This document shows, piece by piece, positions 3,667 through 16,885 of a stretch of DNA of 32,722 nucleotides. Both the position numbers and the translations under genes were made by a program. This DNA is from Thermomicrobiales bacterium (GTDB lineage: Bacteria > Chloroflexota > Chloroflexia > Thermomicrobiales > UBA6265), in NCBI GenBank assembly GCA_020853615.1, contig JADYYO010000061.1, positions 1-32,722 of the forward strand, in the 5' to 3' direction. How positions within the stretch are numbered: the first letter of the stretch is position 1; every line of letters starts with the position of its first letter. The notes below the pieces were generated by a model, which was given only the letters and a program-made list of their open reading frames with translations, was not told the origin of the DNA and searched no databases.

Positions 3667-5121
3667 CTACATGCTCGGCCCGCTCCACGCGCCGCGAGTG
3701 GCGTCGAGGCGGTCGAGGTAGCAGGCCATGCCGGCGTCGTAAAGGTGGGCGAGCGCGGGGCGAGGCTCGACGACCCCCTCGGGGGCCGTCCAGCGCGCGA
3801 TGTCGACCTCGCGCCCGGAGGCGGCAAGGGCGGCAAGCGCCGCGCCGCGCGCCCCAGCCTCCGGCTGCCGCGCCATCACCAGCGGGCGCTGCAGCACGTC
3901 GGCCAGGATCTGCCGCCAGCCGGCCGAGCGGACGCCACCTCCACTCAGGGTAACGCGGGCATCGGGCGCGAGTTGGGCGCTCTCCAGGCAGTGGCGGACC
4001 GCGTAGGCGATCCCCTCGCAGACGGCGCGGACGAGGTCCGCCCGGGTGGACTCCAGGCTGACCCCGATCATCTGCCCGCGCGCGGCAGGGTCGACAAAGG
4101 GCGCGCGCTCCCCCGCCGGGGCGAAGAAGGGGAGGACCATCACGCCGCCCGCGCCGGCCGCCGACTCCGCCAGCAACAGATCGATCTCCTCGTGCCGCGT
4201 TCCGGTCATCGCCAGGATCCACTCCAGCGACGGCGTTCCGACCATCGCCGGCATCACCCGCAGCCATTGCGCCTCCTTTGGCATGCAGATGAGCATGCCG
4301 GCCGGCGGGCCCTCCGTCTCCACCCGTTCGACCAGCACCGCGCAGCCAAGGGTGGTGCCCAGGATGACGAGCCCGTCGCCCGGCCGATCCACCCCCGCGC
4401 CCATTACCGTCGCACAGATATCGAAGGGGCCAGCGTGGACCGGCGTTCCTTCCGGCAGCCCGGTCAACTCGGCGCCAGCCTTCGACAGCGGGCGCAGCGG
4501 GGCGGGGGAGGGGTCGACCGGGGCGAGGAGGTCGCGCCATTGCGAGACGCCATAGAGCGCGAGCAGATCGTCGTCGTAGCGGCGCGCCACTGGGTCGAAG
4601 AAGGGGAGTGAGGCGTCGGAGGAGTCGGTGACGCGGGCGCCGGTCAGCCGCTGCAGGATGGCGTCCTTGCAATAGCCGGCGGTGGCGGCGGCGCGGAGCG
4701 ACCCCGGCTCCTCCTCCTGCAGAAAGGCGAGCAGCGGCGCCGCGGCGCCTGGGAAGAGCATGTTGCCGGAGCGGCGGAAGCCCGCTTCGGCAACGCCGGA
4801 GGCCATCCATTCCGTCACGATCCCTGCCGCGCGCGCATCCGACCAGAGGATCGGCGGCCGCACCTGATAGCCCTCACGGTCGAGGAGCCAGAGCCCGTCC
4901 CCCTGCGCGGTGATGCCGAGCAGATCGACCGGCTCGCCGGCGCTGATCTCGCGGATCACCTCGCCGACCGCCGCGATGACCGCCTCCAGATCCTGCTCGG
5001 TCCGGCCCGGCGACGGCACGATCGTCCGCGTCGGCCGCGCGGCAACGCGAATCAGCTCCCCCTCGTCGTCAAAGGCGACCGCCTTGACGACCGACGTTCC
5101 GGCATCGACCCCGATCAGCAT
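3667..5121 (-). CDS. FGGY-family carbohydrate kinase (tetritol/pentulose type)
   Basis: This 484-residue protein has the full two-domain FGGY fold: GVDAGTSVVKAVAFD (first phosphate loop) at the N-terminus, GITAQGDGLWLLD and WSDARAAGI in the sugar-binding part, HAGPFDICATVMGAG and ILGTTLGCAVL at the start of the second domain, and LSGGGVRSAGWRQILADVLQ (adenosine motif) near residue 400. FGGY kinases phosphorylate polyols, ketoses or their acids with ATP. The GDGLWLLD segment recalls the xylulose/erythritol-kinase side of the family, but specificity cannot be read from sequence. It lies downstream of the CUT1 transporter operon on the same strand, after a 374-base repeat-containing gap, so it may need its own promoter. 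A C4 polyol or ketose is the likely substrate given its neighbours. Confidence 0.85.
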   Translation of the reverse strand: MLIGVDAGTSVVKAVAFDDEGELIRVAARPTRTIVPSPGRTEQDLEAVIAAVGEVIREISAGEPVDLLGITAQGDGLWLLDREGYQVRPPILWSDARAAGIVTEWMASGVAEAGFRRSGNMLFPGAAAPLLAFLQEEEPGSLRAAATAGYCKDAILQRLTGARVTDSSDASLPFFDPVARRYDDDLLALYGVSQWRDLLAPVDPSPAPLRPLSKAGAELTGLPEGTPVHAGPFDICATVMGAGVDRPGDGLVILGTTLGCAVLVERVETEGPPAGMLICMPKEAQWLRVMPAMVGTPSLEWILAMTGTRHEEIDLLLAESAAGAGGVMVLPFFAPAGERAPFVDPAARGQMIGVSLESTRADLVRAVCEGIAYAVRHCLESAQLAPDARVTLSGGGVRSAGWRQILADVLQRPLVMARQPEAGARGAALAALAASGREVDIARWTAPEGVVEPRPALAHLYDAGMACYLDRLDATRGAWSGPSM

Positions 5122-5239
5122 GTTATCGACCCCGTATGGCGCAATCGCTTGCGTGTATCTGGCCGAATGCCGCGCCCCTCGAAGGTGTCACCCTGCAAGG
5201 GGCACATGCCACGATTCACCATGCGCGCCGGTTGCGCGA

Positions 5240-5280
5240 ACCCTCACCCCAGCCTTCTCCCTGTGCGCAGGACGAGGGAG
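5240..5280 (-). repeat. CCCTCACCCC element, copy R5
   Basis: ACCCTCACCCCAGCCTTCTCCCTGTGCGCAGG followed by an imperfect CGAGGGAG return arm. The copy at 5382-5421 is the same sequence in the opposite orientation. Confidence 0.7.
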
Positions 5281-5381
5281 CGCTGAATTCGTCGGCTCGT
5301 GACGGCCACGACGAGGCTGTAGGCGACGAGGCGTTGCCGAGCGGCGCGTCCCCTTTCGTCACGGCTCGTCGACGTCAACAC

Positions 5382-5421
5382 ACCCTCTCCCTGCGCACAG
5401 GGAGAGGGCCGGGGTGAGGGT
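5382..5421 (+). repeat. CCCTCACCCC element, copy R6, inverted relative to R5
   Basis: ACCCTCTCCCTGCGCACAGGGAGAGGGCCGGGGTGAGGGT has an internal hairpin CCCTCTCCCTG / CAGGGAGAGGG with a four-base loop. It pairs with R5 as an inverted repeat across roughly 100 bases. Confidence 0.75.
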
Positions 5422-5495
5422 AGATGCGACCAGCACGCCCGGCCACCGGAACCAACGTGCTTCCTTCATCAGCATGACACGCCCAGCAAGCCGCT

Positions 5496-6578
5496 CTATC
5501 CGGTCGTCACGGCGGCCGGGTTGGCGACGAAGCGAAGCGGCTCGCCGCGCAGGTAGCGCCCGACCTCGGCGGCGGCGATCGTCGCCGCTCGCTCGGCGGT
5601 CTCGCGGCTGGCCCCGGCGAGGTGCGGCGAGATGACGAGATTCGGCGTCGTGAAGACGCGCGAGCCCGCCTCCGGCGGCTCCGGGTCGTAGACATCGAGG
5701 GCGGCCGCGCGCAGCTTGCCGGCGTCGAGCGCGTCGAAGAGCGCCTCCTGATCGAGAAGGCCGCCCCGCGCCGCGTTGACCAGCACCGCGCCGTCTGGCA
5801 GGCGGGCGATCGCCTCGCGGTCGATTAGGTGGCGCGTCTCGGGGGTGAGCCGGGCGTGCAGGCTCAGGATCTCGGCCCGGGGCAGCAGCTCGTCGAGCGT
5901 CACCAGCGTCGCCCCCTCGCGCGTGACCGCCTCCGGGTCGACGTAGGGATCGGCGACCAGCACCTCCGTGCCGAAGGCGCGCAGCACGCGCGCGACCCGG
6001 CTGCCGACCGCGCCGAAGCCGACCAGCCCGGCCGTCTTCCCCTCCAGCTCGATGCCGGCCACGTCGTAGGCGTAGAGATCGCCGCGCCAAACGCCAGCGA
6101 GGAGATCCTTGTGCCCCTCGGCGATGCGGCGCATGGCGGCCAGCAGTAGGCCGATCGTGTACTCGGCGGTCGCGGCCGCGTTGCGGGCGGGGGAGTAGCA
6201 GACCGGGATGCCCCGCACCGTCGCCGCCTCGAGATTGACGTTGACCGGCCCGCCCCGGCAGACGACGATCAGCCGCAGCGCCTCCGACGCGGCGATGACC
6301 CGCCGCGTCATAGGGGCCATCTCCGTCACGACGATCTCGATGCCGTCGAGGACGCCGAGCATCTTCTCCTCGGTCCCCGCCGCCTCCTTCACCTCGGCGA
6401 CCGGCCCGAAGGGATCGACCGGCCAGCCGAGCACGATCTCGCGCAGCGCGACCCGGTCGCCGGCCTCGGCCGCGATCGCCTCGCGCAACAGGCTGTTCAG
6501 GACGAACTGATCGCCCGCCAGCAGCGTCGGGACGGCCTGCACGGCTACCTCGCGACCATTGACGGCACGCTCTCCCAT
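5496..6578 (-). CDS. D-isomer specific 2-hydroxyacid dehydrogenase (SerA-like), NAD-dependent
   Basis: About 360 residues when started at the ATG at 6578. The longer ORF in the track reads through the ABC gene in a shadow frame. The NAD-binding motif is GLVGFGAVGSRVARVL. The catalytic Arg lies in NAARGGLLDQEAL, the Glu in DVYDPEPPEAG and the His in ISPHLAGAS, so the Arg-Glu-His set is complete. CRGGPVNVNLEAA is the substrate-loop region typical of the phosphoglycerate-dehydrogenase-like group. No ACT domain follows, so this is not a full-length serine-pathway SerA. It is the last tightly linked gene of the ABC transporter operon: its start overlaps the ATPase gene by 34 bases. A role in oxidising or reducing a C4 hydroxy acid is inferred from context only. 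Confidence 0.87.
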   Translation of the reverse strand: MGERAVNGREVAVQAVPTLLAGDQFVLNSLLREAIAAEAGDRVALREIVLGWPVDPFGPVAEVKEAAGTEEKMLGVLDGIEIVVTEMAPMTRRVIAASEALRLIVVCRGGPVNVNLEAATVRGIPVCYSPARNAAATAEYTIGLLLAAMRRIAEGHKDLLAGVWRGDLYAYDVAGIELEGKTAGLVGFGAVGSRVARVLRAFGTEVLVADPYVDPEAVTREGATLVTLDELLPRAEILSLHARLTPETRHLIDREAIARLPDGAVLVNAARGGLLDQEALFDALDAGKLRAAALDVYDPEPPEAGSRVFTTPNLVISPHLAGASRETAERAATIAAAEVGRYLRGEPLRFVANPAAVTTG

Positions 6579-7702
6579 TCCAGACGTTCTCCCGTTTCGC
6601 GATCGAAGAGATGCGTGCGCTCCGGATCGAGGTAGAGCCCGACGGCTTCGCCGGAACGCGCGCGGACATCGTGGTGCGTCTCGATGACGACGCGCTGCTC
6701 GACCCCTGGCAGTTGCGCGGTCAGGCGGCCGACCTCCTGCAGCGGCTCGAAGGCGAAGACCGTCGCCGCCAGCGCGCCGGGAGCATCGGGCGGCTCCAGC
6801 CGGAGATCCTGCGGCCGAATCCCCAGCATCACCTCGCGCTGATTGGCCTCGCCGGCGACGATCCCCGGCAGGGCCACCCGCGCCTGATCCGAGAGCCGGA
6901 CTTCCAACTCGCCGTTGCCGCGATCGGAGAGCCGCCCGGGCAGGAGGTTCATGCGCGGCTCGCCGACGAAGTCGGCAACGAAGAGGTTTGCCGGCCGGTC
7001 GTAGACCTCGTCGGCGGTGCCGACCTGCTGCAACTTGCCGTCGTTCATGACCGCGATGCGGTCGGCGAGGGAGAGCGCCTCGTGCTGGTCGTGGGTGACA
7101 AGGACGGTCGTGAAACCCGTCTCCCGCTGCAGTCGCTTCAGCTCGCGGCGGGTGGCGTCGCGCTCGGCGGCGTCGAGGTGCGAGAGGGGCTCGTCGAGGA
7201 GCAGCACCGAGGGGGTGCGGACGATGGCGCGGGCGAGGCTGACGCGCTGCTTCTGGCCGCTGGAGAGCCCGCCCGGCTTGCGGTCGAGCAGGGGCGAGAT
7301 GCCGAGCCGCTCCGCGACCTCGCGCGCCCGGGCCACGGCATCCCGCTCCTTGCGCGCGCGCATGCCGAAGGTGATGTTCTCCTCGACGGTGAGCGGCGGG
7401 AAGAGCGCGTAGTTCTCGAAGGCGACCGCCACGTTTCGCTCGTGCGGCGGCAGCCCGACGATCGAGCGCCCCCCGACCCCGATGTCGCCGCTGGTCGGCT
7501 CCTCCAGCCCGGCGATCATGCGCAGCGTCGTCGACTTCCCGCAACCCGAGGGGCCGAGGAGGCCGAGCATCTCTCCCTCGTCGACCGTCAGGTCGATCCC
7601 CGCCACCGCATGCACCGGCGCCCGGCCCCGCTGGCGGAAGGTCTTTGTCAGGCGGCTGAGCACCATGCCGCTCGACCCGCGGTGCATCGGAGCACTAGCC
7701 AC
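6545..7702 (-). CDS. CUT1 ABC transporter ATP-binding protein (MalK/UgpC/GlpT-like), second of two
   Basis: The 385-residue ATPase has Walker A LLGPSGCGKSTTL (about residue 50), signature LSSGQKQRVSLARA, Walker B VLLLDEPLSHLDA, the H-loop VTHDQHEALSLADRI, and a C-terminal OB-like regulatory domain containing GIRPQDLRLE. It powers sugar or polyol import by the adjacent CUT1 permeases. The signature has LSSGQ where LSGGQ is usual, and the Q-loop region reads AFENYALFP where MalK has FQxYALYP, so the Q-loop glutamine appears replaced by glutamate. The gene start overlaps the preceding ATPase gene by eight bases. Two non-identical ATPases in one operon resemble the GlpS/GlpT arrangement of glycerol importers, and a heterodimer is likely. 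Confidence 0.9.
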   Translation of the reverse strand: MASAPMHRGSSGMVLSRLTKTFRQRGRAPVHAVAGIDLTVDEGEMLGLLGPSGCGKSTTLRMIAGLEEPTSGDIGVGGRSIVGLPPHERNVAVAFENYALFPPLTVEENITFGMRARKERDAVARAREVAERLGISPLLDRKPGGLSSGQKQRVSLARAIVRTPSVLLLDEPLSHLDAAERDATRRELKRLQRETGFTTVLVTHDQHEALSLADRIAVMNDGKLQQVGTADEVYDRPANLFVADFVGEPRMNLLPGRLSDRGNGELEVRLSDQARVALPGIVAGEANQREVMLGIRPQDLRLEPPDAPGALAATVFAFEPLQEVGRLTAQLPGVEQRVVIETHHDVRARSGEAVGLYLDPERTHLFDRETGERLEWESVPSMVAR

Positions 7703-8843
7703 GGCCGCTTACCTCGACTTCGCGCCATTGCGGTGTCTCTTCCACGCCGCCCGGCATCGCTAGCGGGATGCGCTGCCCCGCATCGCGGTCGAAGAGGAGG
7801 AGCCGCTCAGGCGGCGCCGAGACCGTCGCCAGCGCATCGGGCTGCAAATCCTCGAAGGGCGTGACGACCGCGATCTGCTGGCTGCCGATCTGGATCGTCG
7901 CCTCGCGCTGCCGCCCCAGCGGCTCGACGACGTAGATCCGCCCCCGCAACGGGTGCATCCCCGGCTCCTCGCCGAATACGAGATCGCGCGGGCGCACGCC
8001 GAGCTCGACCGCCGCGCCCGAGGGGAGGTCGACCGGGCCGAGCGGCACGCGGACGAGCCCGTCCGGGGTCACGAAGGCGGCTTCGCCATCGCGCTGCTCG
8101 ATCTGGCCGCCGAGGAGGTTGATCTGCGGCTGCCCGAACGCCCTCGCCACGAAGACATCGACCGGACGGTGCCAGAGATCCTCCCGCGTGCCGACCTGCA
8201 CCAGCTTCCCCGCGCGCAGCACCGCGATTCGGTCGCCGAGCGCCAGCGCCTCGAGGTAGTCGTGGGTGACGTAGAGGCTCGTCGTCTGTTGCAGCTCCCC
8301 GAGCGACTTCAGCTCGGCGCGCATCGCCGCGCGCAGCTTGGCATCGAGGTGCGACAGCGGCTCATCGAGGAGGAGGACATCGGCCGGGCGGACCAGCACC
8401 CGCGCCAGCGCCACGCGTTGCCGCTGCCCGCCGGAGAGCTCGCCCGGCATCCGCTCCAGCAGATGGCCGATGCCGAGCGTCGCCGTGACCCGCTCGATCA
8501 GCGACTTCGCCTCGGCCGGCGGCAGGTAGTAGCGCTTCGAGCGGAGGGGAAAGGCGATATTGTCGAAGACCGTCTCCTGCGGATAGAGCGCGTAGTTCTC
8601 GAAGGCCATCGCCACCCGCCGCGCGTTCGGCTCGACGTCGGTGACGTCACGGCCGCCGATGAAGACGCGCCCGGCGGTCGGCGTCTCCAGCCCCGCCACG
8701 CACTTCAGCGTCGTCGTCTTGCCGGCGCCAGAGGGGCCGAGGAGGACGAAGAACTCGCCATCGCCGACATCGAGGTCGAGCCCGTCGAGCGCGACGAGCT
8801 TGCCGAATTCCTTGCGCACCCCGCGCACTTCGAGCGTCGCCAC
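7695..8843 (-). CDS. CUT1 ABC transporter ATP-binding protein (MalK/UgpC/GlpS-like), first of two
   Basis: The 382-residue ATPase carries Walker A LLGPSGAGKTTTLK, signature LSGGQRQRVALARVL, Walker B VLLLDEPLSHLDA, H-loop VTHDYLEALALGDRI, and the C-terminal regulatory domain (ELGVRPRDLVFGE). Like its partner, its Q-loop reads AFENYALYP, with glutamate in the glutamine position. It begins three bases after the stop of the upstream permease and overlaps the next ATPase by eight bases, so it is firmly in the operon. The two ATPases share the fold but differ widely in sequence, which points to an old paralogous pair rather than a recent tandem copy. Substrate not readable from the ATPase. Confidence 0.9.
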   Translation of the reverse strand: MATLEVRGVRKEFGKLVALDGLDLDVGDGEFFVLLGPSGAGKTTTLKCVAGLETPTAGRVFIGGRDVTDVEPNARRVAMAFENYALYPQETVFDNIAFPLRSKRYYLPPAEAKSLIERVTATLGIGHLLERMPGELSGGQRQRVALARVLVRPADVLLLDEPLSHLDAKLRAAMRAELKSLGELQQTTSLYVTHDYLEALALGDRIAVLRAGKLVQVGTREDLWHRPVDVFVARAFGQPQINLLGGQIEQRDGEAAFVTPDGLVRVPLGPVDLPSGAAVELGVRPRDLVFGEEPGMHPLRGRIYVVEPLGRQREATIQIGSQQIAVVTPFEDLQPDALATVSAPPERLLLFDRDAGQRIPLAMPGGVEETPQWREVEVSGRG

Positions 8844-8846
8844 CCA

Positions 8847-9734
8847 CTACCCCTTCACGGCGCCGAACGTCAGTCCGCGCACGAGATAGCGCTGAATGGA
8901 GAGCGCGAGGAGGAGCGGCGGGATCAGCGCGATCAGCGCCGCCGCGGCGGTCAGGTTGTAGCGCGGCGTGGCGCCGCCCATGAAGGAGAGGGCGCCGACC
9001 GTCACCGTCTGCGCGTTGCTCCCGGTCAGGATGAAGGGGAAGATGAAGGAGTTCCAGGCGAAGATGAAGGCGAGGAGCGCGGCGGCGGCCATCCCCGGCT
9101 TCACCAGCGGCAGCGCCACTTTCACGAAGGCCTGCGGCCGGGAGTAGCCGTCGAGCAGGGCCGACTGCTCCAGCTCCGGCGTCAGGTCCTGGAAGTAGGA
9201 GCGGAGGATCCAGACGATCAGCGGCAGGGTGATCAACTGGTAGACCCAGATCAGCCCGAGGTGCGTATCGAAGAGGCCGATCCGCTGGTAAATAACATAA
9301 ATCGGAATGATCACCATCAGCTCCGGGGCGAAGCGGAAGGAGAGGAGGGTGAAAAGGAGGCTCTCGCCCCCCTTGAACTGGTAGCGGGCGAAGGCGTAGG
9401 CCGCCGGCACCCCGACCAGCAGCGAGATGAGGACCGCCCCGAAGGAGACGATCAGGCTGTTGATGAAGAAGCGGACGAAGGGGACGCTGCCGGAGGCGTC
9501 GAGCCCGAGCACCGCGCGGTAGGAATCGAGCGTCGGCGTGAACCGGAAGTAGGTGGTGAAGAGTTGATCCGGCGTCTTCAACGAGAGGAGAAGCATCCAG
9601 ACGAGCGGGAAGAGGGCGAAGATGAAGTAGACGATGGTGAGGAGATCGAGCGCGATGCCGCCGACGCTCCATCGCCGCGTGGCCGCCCGCTCCTCCTGCT
9701 CCGCCAGGACCGGGTTCGCCTCGATCGCTGCCAT
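8847..9734 (-). CDS. Carbohydrate ABC transporter permease, CUT1 MalG-like
   Basis: This 295-residue inner-membrane permease has six hydrophobic segments, the first at about residues 25-55 (LLTIVYFIFALFPLVWMLLLSL). The coupling-loop EAA motif is SALLDGYSRPQAFVKVALPLVKPGMAAAALLAFIFAWNSFIFP, with the conserved glycine and PLxxPG. The WNSFIFP end is typical of MalG-type subunits. GGGAGCC upstream of the ATG supports the start. It forms the channel with the MalF-like permease encoded upstream; the two genes are separated by a 200-base insert of REP-like repeats. Confidence 0.9.
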   Translation of the reverse strand: MAAIEANPVLAEQEERAATRRWSVGGIALDLLTIVYFIFALFPLVWMLLLSLKTPDQLFTTYFRFTPTLDSYRAVLGLDASGSVPFVRFFINSLIVSFGAVLISLLVGVPAAYAFARYQFKGGESLLFTLLSFRFAPELMVIIPIYVIYQRIGLFDTHLGLIWVYQLITLPLIVWILRSYFQDLTPELEQSALLDGYSRPQAFVKVALPLVKPGMAAAALLAFIFAWNSFIFPFILTGSNAQTVTVGALSFMGGATPRYNLTAAAALIALIPPLLLALSIQRYLVRGLTFGAVKG

Positions 9735-9934
9735 TAGCTGGCTCCCATGCTGGAAACGCCCGACCGGCCGTAAGGGCGACGCCTGCGTCGCGCGGGCTGA
9801 TCCGCCGCGACTGTCAATCCTGGCGACGGGGTTGCCTGGAGGTGAACGCCCTGGTATGGGGCTCGGGCGACGCCTGCGTCGCCCCTACGCGTGGATACGC
9901 ATGGAGAGACGAGTTCCATCACTATCACGCCCAC
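9735..9934. other. Repeat-filled gap inside the ABC operon
   Basis: Two hundred bases separate the two permease genes, unusual in an operon whose other junctions are overlaps or a few bases. Most of the gap is the inverted pair of REP-like hairpins at 9770-9888. I see no ORF that stands out. Confidence 0.6.
9770..9888 (-). repeat. REP-like hairpin pair with GTAA/CTAC feet (BIME-like), operon copy
   Basis: At the left is GTAA followed by GGGCGACGCCTGCGTCGCGC. At the right is GGGCGACGCCTGCGTCGCCC followed by CTAC (GTAG plus hairpin on the other strand). Between them CGCGGGCTGATCCGCCGCGACTG and GGGTTGCC recur almost unchanged at 32021-32136, next to the RAYT remnant. Hairpins with a GTAG foot are the signature of REPs served by RAYT transposases (family knowledge). 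Confidence 0.8.
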
Positions 9935-10867
9935 TCAAACCCCCGCCGCGCGGGCCTGCGCCTTCGCCAGAACCTTGATCAGGCCGAAGGTCGCGAGGTA
10001 GACGACAAACCAGAGGATGAGCATGTAGGTCTGCCCGATCGAGAAGTTCGAGAAGGGGATGGCGTCCTGATAGGCCTGAATCTGCAGCGCCATCGTCGCG
10101 TTGCCGGGACCGCCCCCGGTCAGGGCGAAGATCACGTCGAAGACCTTCAGCGAGTCCATCAGCCGGAAGATGACCGCGACCAGAATATAGGGCCAGAGCA
10201 TCGGCAGCGTCAGATTGCGGAAGGTGAACCAGAAGCTCGCCCCCTCAACCGCCGCCGCCTCGAACGGGGCGCGTGGCAAGGAGCGCAAGCCGGCAAGCAC
10301 CAGCAGCGCGACAAACGGGGTGAAGATCCAGACGTCGATCAGGATGACGGAGAACATCGCCATCGCCGGCGTGTCGGTCCACGCCTGATTGCCGAGGCCG
10401 ATCGGCGAGAGGACGTAGTTGAGGATGCCGACGCTCGGCTGCATCATCAGCCGCCACATGATGGTGGCGATGATCGGGGCGACCATCAGCGGCAGGATCA
10501 GGAAGCGCTCCAGCGTACGGCTGACGAGGCTGCTGCGCGCCAGGAGGAGGGCGATAGCCACCCCCAGCACCGTCTCGACGAGGGTCGCGCCGATGGCGAA
10601 CTTCGCCGTCACGCCGACGCTGTGCCAGAACTTGTCGTCGGTCAGGATCCGCTCGAAGTTGCGGAAGCCGATGAACTCCGGGTTCGGCCGGGTCGCCTTG
10701 TAGTTCTGGAAGGCGTAGATCGCGCCCTGGACGAAGGGATAGAGGATGCCGATCGTCAGCGCGACCGCCGGGATGACCAGCAGATACGGGCGCGCCGAAC
10801 GCCGCCACGCCGGCAGGAGCCCGTCGTTTGCCTGTTCCGTTGGGGCGAGCGCCGTGCCGCCACGCAT
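9935..10867 (-). CDS. Carbohydrate ABC transporter permease, CUT1 MalF-like
   Basis: The 310-residue permease has six membrane segments, beginning with PYLLVIPAVALTIGILYPFVQGAIYAF (residues 27-53). The EAA loop is FEAAAVEGASFWFTFRNLTLPMLWPYILVAVIFRLMDSLKVFDVIFALTGGGPG; the final TGGGPG stretch is the usual MalF/UgpA mark. AGGATTCGGGA upstream of the ATG is a plausible ribosome-binding site. It pairs with the MalG-like permease and receives substrate from the binding protein encoded just upstream. A 13-bp perfect hairpin separates it from the binding-protein gene. Confidence 0.9.
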   Translation of the reverse strand: MRGGTALAPTEQANDGLLPAWRRSARPYLLVIPAVALTIGILYPFVQGAIYAFQNYKATRPNPEFIGFRNFERILTDDKFWHSVGVTAKFAIGATLVETVLGVAIALLLARSSLVSRTLERFLILPLMVAPIIATIMWRLMMQPSVGILNYVLSPIGLGNQAWTDTPAMAMFSVILIDVWIFTPFVALLVLAGLRSLPRAPFEAAAVEGASFWFTFRNLTLPMLWPYILVAVIFRLMDSLKVFDVIFALTGGGPGNATMALQIQAYQDAIPFSNFSIGQTYMLILWFVVYLATFGLIKVLAKAQARAAGV

Positions 10868-10948: not shown

Positions 10949-12397
10949 CTACTCCGTCGCCTGCTGGATCTCCTCGACGAGGGCGTCGAGCGTCTGCTTG
11001 GCATCGGCGCCACCGTAGATCTCCTGCAGCGCCCCGGCCCAGAGGGTGGTGGCGTCGAAGAACTGCGGCTGCGGCGTGAAGAGGATCTTGGTGTCGTCGA
11101 TGATCGCGTTGAAGGTCTCGAGGAAGTTCTGATTCCCCTTCATCTTGTCGATGAACTCGGGATCGTCGACGATCGAGCGGCGGACCGGGTCGACCATGTT
11201 CCCCTCGAGCGCCGCGTAGCGGAGGTGGTCCTTGCCGGTCGCCCACTGCAGGAAGGTCCAGGTCGCCGGCTTGTTCTGCGACTTGGCGTTCATCCCCAGT
11301 GACCAGATCCACTGGTTGGTGAGAAGCGAGCCGTCCGGTCCCTTCGGCCCGGTGTGCCAGGCGATCTTGCCGGCGCTGGCGCTGCCGCCCGGCTGGTTCT
11401 GGAAATAGGCGAGGATGTCGGCGTCGTAGATCATCGCCGCCTTGCCCGCGCCGAGGTCGGTGCCGACCTCGTACCAGTAGTAGTTCGTCCAGTTCGCCGG
11501 GCCGGACTGCTTCATCATCTTGGCCCACTTGTCGGTGAAGTCGACCGCGATGTCGGAGTTCATGACCGGCACGAGGACATCGTTCTGCAGCTCGAAGTCC
11601 TTGGCCCCCTCGCGCGAGTACTGGGTCATGAAGCCGGGGTGGATCGTCGCCCACTGTCGCGCGCCGCGGGTGGCGATGCCGTACATCCCCTCGTACCCGG
11701 CGCCGGGCGCGTCCTTCGTCAGCTTGGCGGCCAGCTCGACCAGCTCATCCATCGTCTCGGCCGGCTTGACGCCGAGCTTGTCGAAGACCTCAGCGTTGTA
11801 GGAGACGGTGTTCGCCTCGAAGCCCCACGGCAGCGCGTACTGTCCGCCGCTGCCGAGCGGCTCGCCGACGACGAGGCTCCAGTTATCGGAGGTGCGCAGG
11901 TTCGGCAGGACGTCTTCCCAGTCGTACTCGGGATTGGTCGCCGAGGCGTTCTGGATCCAGGGGCTCATGTCCTCCAGCCAGCCCGGAGGCCCATACTGCC
12001 AGACCATGTAGGCGCCGAGCATGAAGGCGTCGTAGGTCGCCTGCCCCGACTGCAGATCGACGGTGAGCTTGTCGAAGTAGTTGGTCTCCGGGAAGGTGTC
12101 CTGCTGGACCGTGATCCCGGTCAGGTCCTGGAAGGTCTGCAGATTCGCCTTCAGCGCGTCGGAGTAGGGGTGCTCGTTGAGGAGGACCTTGATCGTCGCG
12201 CCGTCGTAGCGCTTCCAGTCGAAGTCGCCGGTGACGTCCGCGGCCGCGCTGTCCTGCGCCGCGGCCGGGAAGTGCAAGCCGGCCATCCCGGTCATCGCCA
12301 GCGCCGCGCCGGCGCCGAGTCCGGCCTGCAGTGCGCGGCGCCGGGAAAGGCGACGCCCCAGCGTGTCAGTCAACGACGACCGATATCCACGAGGCAT
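10949..12397 (-). CDS. Extracellular solute-binding protein, CUT1 sugar/polyol ABC transporter
   Basis: This 482-residue secreted protein starts with a twin-arginine type signal (RRLSRRRALQAGLGAGAALAMTGMAG, cleavage probably after AAAQ). No lipobox cysteine is visible, so it is either released or held by an uncleaved signal. The body matches family 1 solute-binding proteins: DGATIKVLLNEHPY, FQDLTGITVQ, YDAFMLGAYMVWQYG, LPWGFEANTVSYNAEVFDKLGV and AAMIYDADILAYFQN. It should capture the substrate outside the cell for the two permeases. GAGAGGAG upstream of ATG makes a strong ribosome-binding site. It is the first gene of the - strand operon and faces the DeoR-family gene across a 446-base control region. 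A C4 polyol or sugar acid is a reasonable but unproved ligand. Confidence 0.9.
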   Translation of the reverse strand: MPRGYRSSLTDTLGRRLSRRRALQAGLGAGAALAMTGMAGLHFPAAAQDSAAADVTGDFDWKRYDGATIKVLLNEHPYSDALKANLQTFQDLTGITVQQDTFPETNYFDKLTVDLQSGQATYDAFMLGAYMVWQYGPPGWLEDMSPWIQNASATNPEYDWEDVLPNLRTSDNWSLVVGEPLGSGGQYALPWGFEANTVSYNAEVFDKLGVKPAETMDELVELAAKLTKDAPGAGYEGMYGIATRGARQWATIHPGFMTQYSREGAKDFELQNDVLVPVMNSDIAVDFTDKWAKMMKQSGPANWTNYYWYEVGTDLGAGKAAMIYDADILAYFQNQPGGSASAGKIAWHTGPKGPDGSLLTNQWIWSLGMNAKSQNKPATWTFLQWATGKDHLRYAALEGNMVDPVRRSIVDDPEFIDKMKGNQNFLETFNAIIDDTKILFTPQPQFFDATTLWAGALQEIYGGADAKQTLDALVEEIQQATE

Positions 12398-12495
12398 GCG
12401 GAACTCCTCTCATCTCGACGCCCTGACCACGCGGTCAGCGGGCCGTACGCGGAACGGAGAACCTGGAGCGCGAGATCGCTCCCGAACGCGCCGCT

Positions 12496-12520
12496 ATCAC
12501 GGATATGTGTGATGATTTCA
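12496..12520 (-). promoter_or_regulatory. Putative DeoR-family operator, ABC-operon side
   Basis: The site reads ATCAC-N8-GTGAT followed by GATTTCA. A closely similar arrangement in reverse complement occurs at 12754-12780 on the DeoR side. Paired, matching sites in a divergent region beside a regulator gene are what an autoregulated DeoR-family repressor would need. The assignment is inference from position and similarity. Confidence 0.5.
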
Positions 12521-12629
12521 CTCTAGCATGGGGGAAAGAGGAGGGCAAGACCTCCAGGTGGCAATCGCGAGCGGCCAGCGGTGGCTACGCGCGTTCAAGA
12601 TCACAAGCCGCGTTGGTTTTCAGTGCCCA

Positions 12630-12693
12630 GGGCACGCCATGGCGTGCCCCTATAAAAGGCGTGCATCGGGTAGGGGCACGGCATGCCGTGCCC
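12630..12693. repeat. REP-like inverted pair of 20-bp perfect palindromes with CTAT/GTAG feet
   Basis: GGGCACGCCATGGCGTGCCC followed by CTAT, then 16 bases, then GTAG followed by GGGCACGGCATGCCGTGCCC. Both 20-mers are perfect palindromes, and the tetranucleotides face each other. The plan (GTAG plus GGGC-start hairpin) matches the REP copies at 9770-9888 and 32113-32136, although the stems differ in sequence. A decayed third palindrome (GCGGCATGCCGC) follows directly. Confidence 0.8.
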
Positions 12694-12753
12694 AGTTGCG
12701 GCATGCCGCGCCCAATCAGGGAAGAACGCCGCGCCTCCCGACGACAGATGCTA

Positions 12754-12780
12754 TGATGAAATCACAGATGCTCATGTGAT
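12754..12780 (+). promoter_or_regulatory. Putative DeoR-family operator, regulator side
   Basis: TGATGAAATCACAGATGCTCATGTGAT contains ATCAC-N10-GTGAT. Its reverse complement (ATCAC...TGTGATTTCATCA) lines up with the site at 12496-12520. It lies 64 bases upstream of the regulator start and overlaps a possible -10 (TATGAT), as expected for autorepression. Confidence 0.5.
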
Positions 12781-12843
12781 CTTTGCGATGGCCCCAACGC
12801 GCTGCCACGGGAGCTGACGAGTGGACGAACGCGAGGCAGGTCG

Positions 12844-13665
12844 ATGACCGCATCCCTGGAGCGGCAGGCAGAGAGCGCCTCGCGGCCCGCCATGCCTGGG
12901 CTCAGCCCGAGCGCGCGCCGCGAGCAGATTGCCGCCATCGTCCTCGCTAACGAGGCGGTCTCTGCCCGCGAGCTGGCCGAGCGCTTCGCCGTCAGCGCGA
13001 TGACGATCCACCGCGACCTGGACGAGCTGGAGCAGCAGGGAGTTCTGCGCAAGACGCGCGGCGGCGCCACGCCCCAGCCCTCCAGCCTCTTCGAGAGCAA
13101 TGTCCGCTACCGGCTGGCGACGGCCCGGGAGGAGAAGGCGGCACTGGCCCGCTACACCCTCCCTCGGATCGAGCCGGGCCAGGCCGTCCTGCTCGACGAC
13201 GCCACGACGACGCTCGCCCTCGCCCCGCTGCTGCCCGATATCGCGCCGCTGACCGTGATCACCAACTACTTGGCGACGATCCAGATCCTGCACGATGCCC
13301 CGGGGATCCGGCTGATCGCGCTCGGCGGCGAATACTCCCCGAGCCACAACTCGTTTATCGGCATTGTCTGCGAGGACGCGATCGCCTCGCTGCGGGCCGA
13401 TGTCTTCATCATGTCGACCTCGGCCGTGGCCAACGGCATCGCCTATCACCAGGAGCAGGAGATCGTCGCCGTCAAGCGGGCGATGTTGCGCGCGGCGAAC
13501 CGGAGCATCCTCCTGATCGATCACGGCAAGCTGGGCAAGACCGCGCTGCACCGGCTCGCGCCCCTCACCGATTTCGATCTCGTCGTCGTCGACGACGGTG
13601 TGGACGCCGCGGGATTGCGCATTCTGGAAGAAGCGAAAGTGCCCTTCGCGGTCGCCCCGCGCTGA
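12844..13665 (+). CDS. DeoR/GlpR-family transcriptional regulator
   Basis: The 273-residue protein has the DeoR N-terminal winged helix-turn-helix (RREQIAAIVLANEAVSARELAERFAVSAMTIHRDLDELEQQGVLRKTRGGA, residues 20-75) and the DeoRC sugar-phosphate sensor domain (VLLDDATTTLALAP, TVITNYLATIQIL, IRLIALGGEYSP, ADVFIMSTSAV, SILLIDHGKLGK). DeoRC domains usually bind a phosphorylated sugar made by the pathway they control. It opens a + strand operon with a HAD phosphatase, a DhaK-DhaL kinase and an RpiB-like isomerase, and faces the ABC operon. It is therefore the likely local repressor of the C4-sugar genes, perhaps sensing erythrulose or erythrose phosphate. A start a few codons upstream cannot be excluded. 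Confidence 0.9.
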   Translation: MTASLERQAESASRPAMPGLSPSARREQIAAIVLANEAVSARELAERFAVSAMTIHRDLDELEQQGVLRKTRGGATPQPSSLFESNVRYRLATAREEKAALARYTLPRIEPGQAVLLDDATTTLALAPLLPDIAPLTVITNYLATIQILHDAPGIRLIALGGEYSPSHNSFIGIVCEDAIASLRADVFIMSTSAVANGIAYHQEQEIVAVKRAMLRAANRSILLIDHGKLGKTALHRLAPLTDFDLVVVDDGVDAAGLRILEEAKVPFAVAPR

Positions 13666-13713
13666 TGCCGGGGCGCGTTGCCGCGTGAGCGGGGCTCGAT
13701 CCAGGGGGAAGAG

Positions 13714-14478
13714 ATGGTGAATTCCGACGTCGCGCGCTTCGATGGCGTCGTCTTCGACCTCGATGGGGTGCTGGTCGAATCGGAGCATCTCTGGGAGGAG
13801 AACTGGACCCGGCATTCGGCCGAGAACGACTACGCGTGGCAGCCGTCCGACACCGCCACCGTGCAGGGTATGAGCGTCCCCGAGTGGTCAGGCTACATGG
13901 CCGAGCGGATCGGGCGGGGCACGCCCGAGGAGATCGCCACCTCGGTCATCGACGGCATGATCGGCGCGTTGCACGGGGGCCGGGTCGACCTTCTGCCGGG
14001 CGCGCGCGAGATGGTCATCACGGTCGCCGGGCGCGTCCCGGTCGCGGTCGCCTCCTCCGCGCCGCGACGGCTGATCGAGGCGGTGCTGGAGGCGGTCGAT
14101 CTGATGCCGCATTTCAGCGCCTACGTCTCCAGCGAAGAAGTGTCGCGCGGCAAGCCGTCGCCCGACGTCTATGAGGAGGCCGCCCGCCGCATCGGCATCG
14201 ACCCCGAACGCTGCGCGGGGGTCGAAGATTCGAGCAACGGCATTCGGGCCGCGGCCGCCGCCGGCATGACCGTGATCGCCATCCCGAATCCGGTCTACCC
14301 GCCCAAACCCGACGCCCTTGCGCTTTGTGCGAAGATCGCCGCATCGCCGGACGACGTGCGCCGCTACCTGCTCGAGCGCCTGCCGAGCGAGTCGAGGAGT
14401 CGAGGAGTTGAGAAGAAGTCGGAAGTCGTGAGTCGGAAGCCAAAGGCCAAGAGCCAGAAGCTAACAGCCGACAGCTGA
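13714..14478 (+). CDS. HAD superfamily hydrolase (phosphatase / beta-phosphoglucomutase-like, subfamily IA)
   Basis: The 254-residue protein carries HAD motif I FDLDGVLVESEHLW (nucleophile Asp and acid/base Asp), motif II VASSAPRR, motif III lysine in GKPSPDVYEEAARRIG and motif IV GVEDSSNGIRAAAAAGM. This is the HAD-IA layout with an alpha-helical cap, typical of small sugar-phosphate phosphatases. The ATG at 13714 is chosen because GGGGGAAGAG lies just upstream; the ORF-track start at 13678 lacks one. The last 25 or so residues (SESRSRGVEKKSEVVSRKPKAKSQKLTADS) are encoded by a low-complexity repeat and look like read-through into repeat DNA. It probably detoxifies or recycles a C4 sugar phosphate; substrate unknown. 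Confidence 0.85.
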   Translation: MVNSDVARFDGVVFDLDGVLVESEHLWEENWTRHSAENDYAWQPSDTATVQGMSVPEWSGYMAERIGRGTPEEIATSVIDGMIGALHGGRVDLLPGAREMVITVAGRVPVAVASSAPRRLIEAVLEAVDLMPHFSAYVSSEEVSRGKPSPDVYEEAARRIGIDPERCAGVEDSSNGIRAAAAAGMTVIAIPNPVYPPKPDALALCAKIAASPDDVRRYLLERLPSESRSRGVEKKSEVVSRKPKAKSQKLTADS

Positions 14479-14491
14479 TAGCTGATAGCCG
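14392..14491 (+). repeat. Low-complexity repeat GAGTCGAGGAGTCGAG ... AGCTGATAGCTGATAGC
   Basis: The tract mixes GAGTCGAG, AGTCGTGAGTCGGAAGCC and tandem AGCTGAT units and is purine-rich, unlike the coding DNA around it. It straddles the end of the HAD gene and supplies its last codons and stop. This kind of degenerate tract is common between genes in related genomes (from memory). Confidence 0.6.
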
Positions 14492-14502
14492 CGGGGGAAG
14501 CG

Positions 14503-16242
14503 ATGAAGCGGTTGCTCAACGAGGCGTCCACCTTTCGGGAGGAGATGATCTCCGGCTTCGCGGCGGCCTACGTGCGCTACCTGCGGCGGGCGCCGGGCGC
14601 GTCGGGCGTCATCGCCAATGGCATCCCGGCGCGCGGGCGCGTCTCGGTCGTGGTCGGCGGCGGTTCGGGGCACTACCCGGCCTTCTACGGTCTTGTCGGG
14701 CAGGGACTCGCCTCGGGCGCGGCGATCGGCGACATCTTCACCTCCCCCTCCGGCGAGCAGTGCTACCGGGTCGGCAAGGCGGTCGACGGCGGCGCCGGCA
14801 TCCTCTTCACCTTCGGCAACTACAGCGGCGACGTCATGAACTTCGGCATGGCCGAGACCCGCCTGCGCGCCGAGGGGATCGACGCGCGCACGGTCCTCGT
14901 CACCGACGATGTCCTCTCGGCCAGACCGGAGGAGGCGGACCGGCGGCGAGGCATTGCCGGCGGCTTCTACGTCTTCAAGAGCGCCGGGGCAGCCGCGGCG
15001 CGCGGTGACAGCATCGCCGACGTCGAGGCGCTGACCCGGCACGCCAACGCGCGCGTTCGCACCGCCGGGGTCGGCTTCGCCGGCTGCACGGTGCCGGGGC
15101 AGGCGGAGCCCCTCTTCACCGTGGAAGCCGGCAAGATGGAGGTCGGGCTCGGCATCCACGGCGAGCAGGGCGTCCGCGTCGAAGAGCATCCCCCGGCGAG
15201 CGAGCTGGCCGCGATGCTGGTCGACATCCTCCTCGCCGAGACGCCCCCGGGCGCGGGGAGCGAGGCCGCCGTGCTAGTCAACGGCCTCGGGGGCACCAAG
15301 TACGAGGAGATGTTCGTCTTCTACAACGATGTCGCCAAATTGCTCGACCGGGCCGGCGTGCAGCCCTACACGCCGATGATCGGCGAGTTCGTCACCTCGC
15401 TCGACATGCCGGGCATGTCCCTCTCCCTCTTCTGGCTCGACGACGACCTGAAGCCGCTCCTCGACGCCACCGCCGCCTCACCCGCCTTCACCAGCATCGG
15501 CCCCGACGTCGCCGCACTGCGAACTTCGAATGGGGACGAGGTGGCGGCCGCGGCAGCGGCGGAATCGAGCGCGGCGGCTGCCGAGGAGGAGGAAGCGCCC
15601 GGCGGCGAGATGGGGGAGCGCGCGCGCGCCGCGCTGCGGCGCGCGCTGGCGGCGATGCAGGAGAAGGAGGGGGAGCTGGGCCGCCTCGATGCGGCCGCCG
15701 GCGACGGCGACCATGGCGCGGGGATGGTGCGCGGGATGCGCGCCGCCGTCGACGCCATCGCGGGGAGCGCGGGCAGCGCCCGCAGCAGCTTCACCCGCGG
15801 CGGCATCGCCTTCCAGAATGCGGCCGGCGGTGCCTCCGGAGCACTGGTCGGCGCGTGGCTGATCGCCATCGGCAACGCGCTGCCGGCAGACGACGCCGCG
15901 GTCGACGCCGCGGCGCTGGCGACGGCGATGGCCGACGCGCAGGCGACGCTGCAGCGGCTCGGGCAGGCGCAGCCGGGCGACAAGACGATGATCGACACCC
16001 TGGCGCCCTTCTCCGACGCCCTCGCCACCGCCGCCGCGAGCGGGGCATCGCTCCTCGACGCCTGGGCGGCGGCGCTGCCGGCGGCCAAGGCGGGCATGGA
16101 AGCGACGACCGATATGGTCAGCAAGCGGGGGCGCGCCTCGCGCCTCGGCGAGCGCTCGCGCGGCACCCAGGATGCCGGCGCCACCTCGATGTACTACGTT
16201 CTGCAGGCGTTCGGCGAGGGATTCGCGGACCAGGGCGAATAG
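14503..16242 (+). CDS. derK: Fused DhaK-DhaL dihydroxyacetone-kinase-type kinase, probable D-erythrulose kinase (DerK-like)
   Basis: The 579-residue protein joins a DhaK domain (residues 1-330) and a DhaL domain (about 370-575) through an Ala/Glu-rich linker. In DhaK, VVGGGSGHYPAFYG is the substrate-site loop and GLGIHGEQG holds the histidine that binds the ketone covalently. In DhaL, AAAGDGDHGAGM is the Asp-rich Mg-ATP site and QNAAGGASGALVG is the phosphate loop. Such ATP-dependent single-chain kinases act on dihydroxyacetone or, in mycobacterial threitol catabolism, on D-erythrulose. The tyrosine in GGGSGHYP (GHEP in classical DHA kinases) and the adjacent RpiB-like isomerase favour D-erythrulose. 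GGGGGAAG upstream supports the start. Family certain, substrate inferred. Confidence 0.87.
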   Translation: MKRLLNEASTFREEMISGFAAAYVRYLRRAPGASGVIANGIPARGRVSVVVGGGSGHYPAFYGLVGQGLASGAAIGDIFTSPSGEQCYRVGKAVDGGAGILFTFGNYSGDVMNFGMAETRLRAEGIDARTVLVTDDVLSARPEEADRRRGIAGGFYVFKSAGAAAARGDSIADVEALTRHANARVRTAGVGFAGCTVPGQAEPLFTVEAGKMEVGLGIHGEQGVRVEEHPPASELAAMLVDILLAETPPGAGSEAAVLVNGLGGTKYEEMFVFYNDVAKLLDRAGVQPYTPMIGEFVTSLDMPGMSLSLFWLDDDLKPLLDATAASPAFTSIGPDVAALRTSNGDEVAAAAAAESSAAAAEEEEAPGGEMGERARAALRRALAAMQEKEGELGRLDAAAGDGDHGAGMVRGMRAAVDAIAGSAGSARSSFTRGGIAFQNAAGGASGALVGAWLIAIGNALPADDAAVDAAALATAMADAQATLQRLGQAQPGDKTMIDTLAPFSDALATAAASGASLLDAWAAALPAAKAGMEATTDMVSKRGRASRLGERSRGTQDAGATSMYYVLQAFGEGFADQGE

Positions 16243-16282
16243 GGCGTCCCTGGCGCGACTGCCAGAACGCTGCACCCAGAGC

Positions 16283-16367
16283 GTGTCATGCTGAGGAACG
16301 AAGCATCTCGGCTGAAGGGAGGCGATGATCCGGGGAGCCGAGATCCTTCGCAAGCTCAGGATGACAC
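16283..16367 (+). repeat. GTGTCATGCTGAG...CTCAGGATGACAC inverted-repeat element, copy B
   Basis: This 85-base copy is a nearly continuous imperfect inverted repeat: GTGTCATGCTGAG / CTCAGGATGACAC at the ends, CGAAGCATCTCGGCT / AGCCGAGATCCTTCG inside. It sits between the kinase and isomerase genes of one operon, so the mRNA could fold it into a long hairpin. Confidence 0.85.
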
Positions 16368-16405
16368 GGTTTTCCGTGGGGCGCTGTTACCGAAAGGACC
16401 CGACC

Positions 16406-16885
16406 ATGACCGAGGCCAGCGATCGCTACGTCGTGGCGATCGGCGCCGATAGCGCCGGCGCCGACCTGAAGAACTTGCTCAAGCAGCAGTTGGAAGCCGA
16501 CCCCCGCGTCGATGTCGTCGACTTCGGCGTGCCCGACGCCAGCGACGACACCGCCTATCCCCACGTCGGGCTCGACGTCGCGCAGGCGGTGGCTCGCGGC
16601 GAGGCGCGGCGCGGGCTCCTGGTCTGCGGCACCGGGATCGGCATGGCCATCAGCGCCAACAAGGTGCCGGGAATCCGGGCGACGGTCGCCCACGACTCCT
16701 ACTCGGTCGAGCGCTCGGTCCTCTCGAACAACTGCCAGGTCCTCACGCTCGGGGCGCGCGTCGTCGGGCCGGAACTGGCGAAGCGGCTGGTCAACGAGTG
16801 GCTCGGCTACGAGTTCGACCCCGGCTCGGCCTCGGCCGAGAAGGTGGCCGTCATCTCCGAGTACGAGGAGCGGGGCGGAGGCTGA
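16406..16885 (+). CDS. derI: RpiB/LacA/LacB-family sugar-phosphate isomerase, probable D-erythrulose-4-phosphate isomerase (DerI/EryI-like)
   Basis: The 159-residue protein has the RpiB fold signature: N-terminal VAIGADSAGADLKNLL, the active-site cysteine in LVCGTGIGMAISANKVPGIRA and the C-terminal NNCQVLTLGARVVGPELAKRLVNEWL. The first motif reads DSAG where ribose-5-phosphate isomerase B has DHAG; I recall DSAG-like forms in erythrose-4-phosphate isomerases but cannot check here. With the DhaK-DhaL kinase upstream it fits the step D-erythrulose 4-phosphate to D-erythrose 4-phosphate, feeding the pentose phosphate pathway. The ATG at 16406 follows AAAGGA; the longer ORF reads through repeat copy B. 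It is 163 bases from the kinase gene, a gap filled mainly by that repeat. Confidence 0.87.
   Translation: MTEASDRYVVAIGADSAGADLKNLLKQQLEADPRVDVVDFGVPDASDDTAYPHVGLDVAQAVARGEARRGLLVCGTGIGMAISANKVPGIRATVAHDSYSVERSVLSNNCQVLTLGARVVGPELAKRLVNEWLGYEFDPGSASAEKVAVISEYEERGGG

Follow-up and report, generated by a model that had tools for sequence, protein, structure and literature searches.

Which sequence a bacterial regulator might bind between two divergent operons, and whether it could control both, is the question raised by the window analyzed here, a 32,722-nucleotide stretch that is the entire contig of a draft genome. Within it, a DeoR-family gene and an ABC importer operon face away from each other across an intergenic region of 446 bp (12398-12843).

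The divergent operons and their relatives

The genes concerned are as follows:

3667..10867, minus strand: remaining genes of the ABC operon (those for two permeases, two MalK-type ATPases, 2-hydroxyacid dehydrogenase, FGGY kinase)
10949..12397, minus strand: solute-binding protein (SBP) gene (SBP_bac_1 by Pfam), at the head of the divergent ABC operon
12844..13665, plus strand: DeoR-family regulator, the presumed binder (Pfam HTH_DeoR 6.2e-14, DeoRC 7.3e-42)
13678..16885, plus strand: remaining deoR operon genes (those for HAD phosphatase, dihydroxyacetone-kinase family protein with Dak1 and Dak2, RpiB-family isomerase)

The regulator thus carries both the DeoR HTH and the DeoRC sensor domain. 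The importer's substrate can reasonably be guessed to be a polyol, since the nearest solved relative of the SBP, 4rya, is a sorbitol-binding protein. The RpiB-family isomerase scored 169.7 bits against the equivalog model for D-erythrulose-4-phosphate isomerase (DerI; cut-off 240) and 177.3 bits against RPI_actino, over the cut-off of 168.2. PdxA and a threonate-kinase-like gene occupy the left end of the window, and an Rfam search gave no match over the gathering scores. Orthologues with 51-78% identity to the regulator occur within its own family, and also in a second family of the class and in other parts of the phylum; four of their loci (L022, L042, L047, and L038) have the divergent SBP gene in common. 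The order of genes in the ABC operon is kept in L042 and L047 up to the contig ends and is rearranged in L038, which comes from another family of the class and retains both the cluster and the operators described below.

A 13-bp palindrome is conserved upstream of DeoR orthologues

A first-pass annotation of this DNA had proposed paired ATCAC-N8/10-GTGAT sites with a TTTCA flank, one facing each operon. Both strings lie exactly where it placed them: ATCACGGATATGTGTGAT at 12496-12513, followed by GATTTCA, and ATCACAGATGCTCATGTGAT at 12761-12780, with TGATGAA directly before it. With spacers of 6-14 bp, ATCAC-N6..14-GTGAT occurs twice in the 32.7-kb window, both times at these intergenic sites, against 0.09 expected, and 1 of 100 shuffles matched this count. 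Genome-wide, ATCAC-N8..10-GTGAT is present at 18 places in 4.23 Mb (~12 expected at equal base frequencies); as this is near chance, the weight of the observation lies in conservation and in two sites falling within a single 446-bp region. At the first site in L022, a locus of the same genus, the left arm is not ATCAC, the sequence reading TAACA-N8-TGTGA, and the right part, TGTGATGATTTCA, is identical.

For comparison, all palindromic 5-mer dyads with gaps of 0-20 were enumerated de novo in 10 upstream regions of DeoR orthologues. TGTGA-N3-TCACA ranked top together with its in-register variant GTGAT-N1-ATCAC, being present in 6 of the 10 regions, while the best of any dyad in 20 shuffles reached 3-5 regions. 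TGTGA..TCACA pairs peak at gap 3 (6/10 regions, versus 0/10 at gap 6), and TCACA..TGTGA pairs are enriched at gaps 6-9, gaps 7 and 8 each being seen in four regions. The conserved unit is the 13-bp palindrome TGTGA-N3-TCACA, located on or just 3' of extended -10 elements (TGNTANNNT), and on the strength of the dyad ranking and gap counts it replaced the ATCAC/GTGAT pairing as the primary unit. The strings noted earlier are real, and what changes is their reading: ATCAC-N8/10-GTGAT joins the facing half-sites of two neighboring operators, and the pairing of its arms is a by-product of the true unit. It corresponds to the TCACA..TGTGA arrangement, whose gap equals the distance separating half-sites that face each other in operators ~19-23 bp apart. 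The TTTCA flank is likewise present, but it is the main palindrome's outer arm in degenerate form.

The motif did not depend on the window for its discovery. An EM palindrome trained without the window and L022 was aTGTGATnATCACAt; when L043 and the own-genome paralogue L045 were dropped as well, so that the whole genus was left out, it was TGTGATnATCACA, with the consensus unchanged. With this genus-left-out motif, 12508-12520 is the top 13-mer of the entire 32.7 kb (12.5 bits, p 0.003 versus shuffles), followed by 12752 (10.6 bits), 29139 (10.5), 12754 (9.6), and 12775 (8.6), of which 29139 is the one top-five match outside the intergenic region. In leave-one-out analysis the site was recovered in 10/10 regions (p 0.001-0.008). 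Phylogenetic footprinting, a check suggested along with the paired sites, finds the palindrome conserved upstream of DeoR orthologues.

The palindromes adjoin extended -10 elements on both sides

In the window, the predicted operators and promoters are arranged as follows:

12496..12501, no strand: outer half-site (ATCACG on the plus strand), the left arm of the first-pass annotation, downstream of the ABC-side operator
12508..12520, no strand: primary ABC-side operator TGTGATGATTTCA, TGTGA-N3-TCACA with a degenerate right arm; 12.4 bits
12520..12528, minus strand: extended -10 (TGCTAGAGT) of the ABC operon promoter, from composite-pattern search and alignment
12543..12548, minus strand: probable -35 (TTGCCC) of the same promoter, at 17 bp from its -10
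12749..12757, plus strand: extended -10 (TGCTATGAT) of the deoR operon promoter; same element in the same register in L022 and L044
12754..12766, no strand: DeoR-side operator 1 TGATGAAATCACA, overlapping the -10; 8.8 bits (9.6 with the genus left out)
12775..12787, no strand: DeoR-side operator 2 TGTGATCTTTGCG; 9.3 bits (8.6 with the genus left out)

At the ABC operon promoter of the window, the last base of the extended -10 is the operator's first base on the minus strand; 6 of 7 ABC-side promoters read TGNTAGRRT, with the final T as first operator base, and two relatives have a perfect TTGACA as -35, 16 bp upstream. The outer half-site on this side varies between relatives in sequence and spacing. 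In the window, L022, and L044, the DeoR-side operator overlaps TGNTATGAT, and operator 1 keeps a common register in all three. Operators 1 and 2 are 21 bp apart, and tandem spacings of 20-22 bp recur in L044, L039, L041, and L047. Of the 17 promoters in the set, 13 have an extended -10 adjoining the operator against a background of 8%, with a nominal p of 1e-11 that is optimistic because register, and not top score, decided the choice of the DeoR-side sites in the window, L022, and L044. The window operators, at 12.4, 9.3, and 8.8 bits, score lower than the operators of most relatives, which reach 17.7 bits.

Between both promoters, at 12627-12714, lies a repetitive palindromic element (GGGCACGGCATGCCGTGCCC and variants). 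It occurs at 24 places in the genome with at most one mismatch and is therefore REP-like; L022 has no such element at the corresponding place.

The motif follows one clade of DeoR-family regulators

To gauge specificity, the EM motif trained without the window and L022 was applied with a threshold of 12 bits. Matches of at least 12 bits were found upstream of 9 of 11 orthologues, compared to 0 of 18 other DeoR-family genes, whose upstream regions gave a mean best score of 5.75 bits, equal to that of random sequence (5.73). Seven of the nine positive orthologues, and L044 as an eighth, come from training regions, an overlap that the leave-one-out recovery covers; orthologues L040 and L025 have no clear site. 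A composite -10/operator pattern, TGNTAGRRTGNNANNNTCNC, has seven matches across 32 family genomes. Six are promoters of the DeoR clade studied here (one being the promoter of the own-genome paralogue on contig C103, L045); the reversed control pattern gave four matches in the same genomes. The independent lineages behind these counts are few, and related sequences share ancestry. Elsewhere in the genome, near-consensus matches are few and mostly inside ORFs, although the latter is a weak argument against a wider regulon because the genome is GC-rich, and we make no claim for or against one.

These comparisons bear on three other explanations of the sites. It is very hard to credit that their likeness reflects chance and common promoter composition: the near-chance frequency of ATCAC-N8..10-GTGAT on its own would fit, but held-out motifs recovered the site in all regions none of the 18 control DeoR upstreams had one, and the motif is kept across several genera. 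We also consider it improbable that ATCAC-N8/10-GTGAT is itself the operator, with one dimer spanning the wider spacing. The enrichment of TCACA-N6..9-TGTGA speaks for this arrangement, but the N3 palindrome is commoner, is nearly fixed relative to the ABC-side -10, and in several promoters has no good outer arm beside it. The outer arm also varies in sequence and spacing.

Still less likely as binder is a global CRP/FNR-type activator, DeoR then acting elsewhere. The half-site is identical to that of Escherichia coli CRP (TGTGA/TCACA), whose consensus gap is N6; TGTGA-N6-TCACA, however, is found in none of the 10 regions, so CRP-like spacing was rejected. Moreover, the sites overlap or follow the -10, a placement suited to repression, the motif tracks the DeoR clade, and the near matches in the rest of the genome are few and mainly within ORFs. 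The 13-bp palindrome very probably has the neighboring DeoR protein as its binder.

A model for repression of both operons

The motif, its conservation, its overlap with promoter-like elements, and its association with the DeoR clade were all computed directly, and the binder, repression, cooperativity, effector, and substrate are inferred. We think it likely that the DeoR-family protein represses both divergent operons from palindromes overlapping the -10 and that a phosphorylated intermediate relieves this repression. The intergenic region (12398-12843) would hold two back-to-back sigma70-type promoters, the extended -10 of each overlapped by a 13-bp palindrome, with a weaker tandem half-site or second operator ~20 bp further downstream at each. 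A DeoR dimer on each palindrome, perhaps cooperative across tandem sites, would block RNA polymerase on both sides. DeoR would thereby repress its own gene with the HAD, DAK, and RpiB genes and, divergently, the polyol-type ABC importer, the 2-hydroxyacid dehydrogenase, and the FGGY kinase, until released by a phosphorylated pathway intermediate, possibly a tetrulose phosphate.

This anatomy fits what is known of DeoR-family sugar regulators, which typically repress from sites in promoters or 5' UTRs, an intermediate of the pathway acting to release them (PMC8579813, PMC3870299, PMC12632272). In C. bescii, DeoR and LacI sites lie on promoters or in 5' UTRs, from which the authors infer repression (PMC8579813). 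The idea of one regulator over both divergent operons gains support from the conservation, the promoter position, and the DeoR-clade association. A separate motif upstream of pdxA2 and the FGGY kinase, where the first-pass annotation would have looked for one, did not appear: the best scores there were 4.0 and 4.8 bits versus 12.4 in the intergenic region, and no operator match above 5 bits lies upstream of pdxA2, FGGY, 2HADH, HAD, DAK, or RpiB in the window. Control of the FGGY kinase would come through the ABC operon, in which it is probably the last gene.

A DeoR-family gene near a two-ATPase importer, or near DAK- and RpiB-type enzymes, is familiar from the rhizobial glpR-glpSTPQV and actinobacterial erythritol/threitol loci, but their enzyme sets differ from that of the window, whose polyol substrate is putative. 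Literature searches on this motif and on DeoR with tetritol genes found no account of the motif. A parallel within the phylum and the regulator family is RhaR of Chloroflexus aurantiacus, which has its operator 5' of its own sugar catabolic operon and is released in vitro by the pathway intermediate L-rhamnulose (PMC3870299). RhaR too has several half-sites in a row, but they are four tandem TCGAAA units, whereas here a 13-bp inverted repeat, TGTGA-N3-TCACA, is in tandem at ~20 bp. A direct-repeat operator of the RhaR type (10-11 bp period) was rejected, as direct repeats of TGTGA at periods 10 and 11 occur in 0 of 10 regions and the gap-3 inverted pair dominates. The E. coli DeoR and MtnR repressors differ from the window operator in sequence and spacing, the MtnR site, CAAAT-N9-ATTTG, being itself only proposed (PMC12632272). 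The operator sequence is newly defined, while the kind of regulation, a divergent-promoter switch, is well known and ordinary, and no general principle is changed. What it offers is an operator sequence open to testing, with two candidate promoters, for an uncharacterized DeoR clade of uncultured Thermomicrobiales, and, by joining the importer and the kinase/isomerase set in one likely regulon, help in assigning the substrate.

A paralogue and further sites in relatives

The same genome has a second DeoR gene on contig C103, 61% identical over the HTH and truncated where the contig stops. It has the same -10/operator elements (L045 7582-7727) and a different ABC importer alongside. Since the paralogues share the operator code and the fused -10/operator promoter, they might cross-regulate the two importer loci as a small network, a possibility we raise tentatively.

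In L047, an inserted sugar transporter stands between the deoR operon and the DAK gene, and a 13.7-bit match at 12103-12115, 99 bp upstream of the displaced gene, is suggestive of a candidate operator; ~0.03 such matches are expected per shuffled locus, and no clear -10 was seen. In L039, two operators 20 bp apart (TGTGTTTATCACA and TGTGAAAATAACA, 436-468) lie upstream of deoR, and more strong sites, at 1605 and 1894, are upstream of a co-directional SBP gene.
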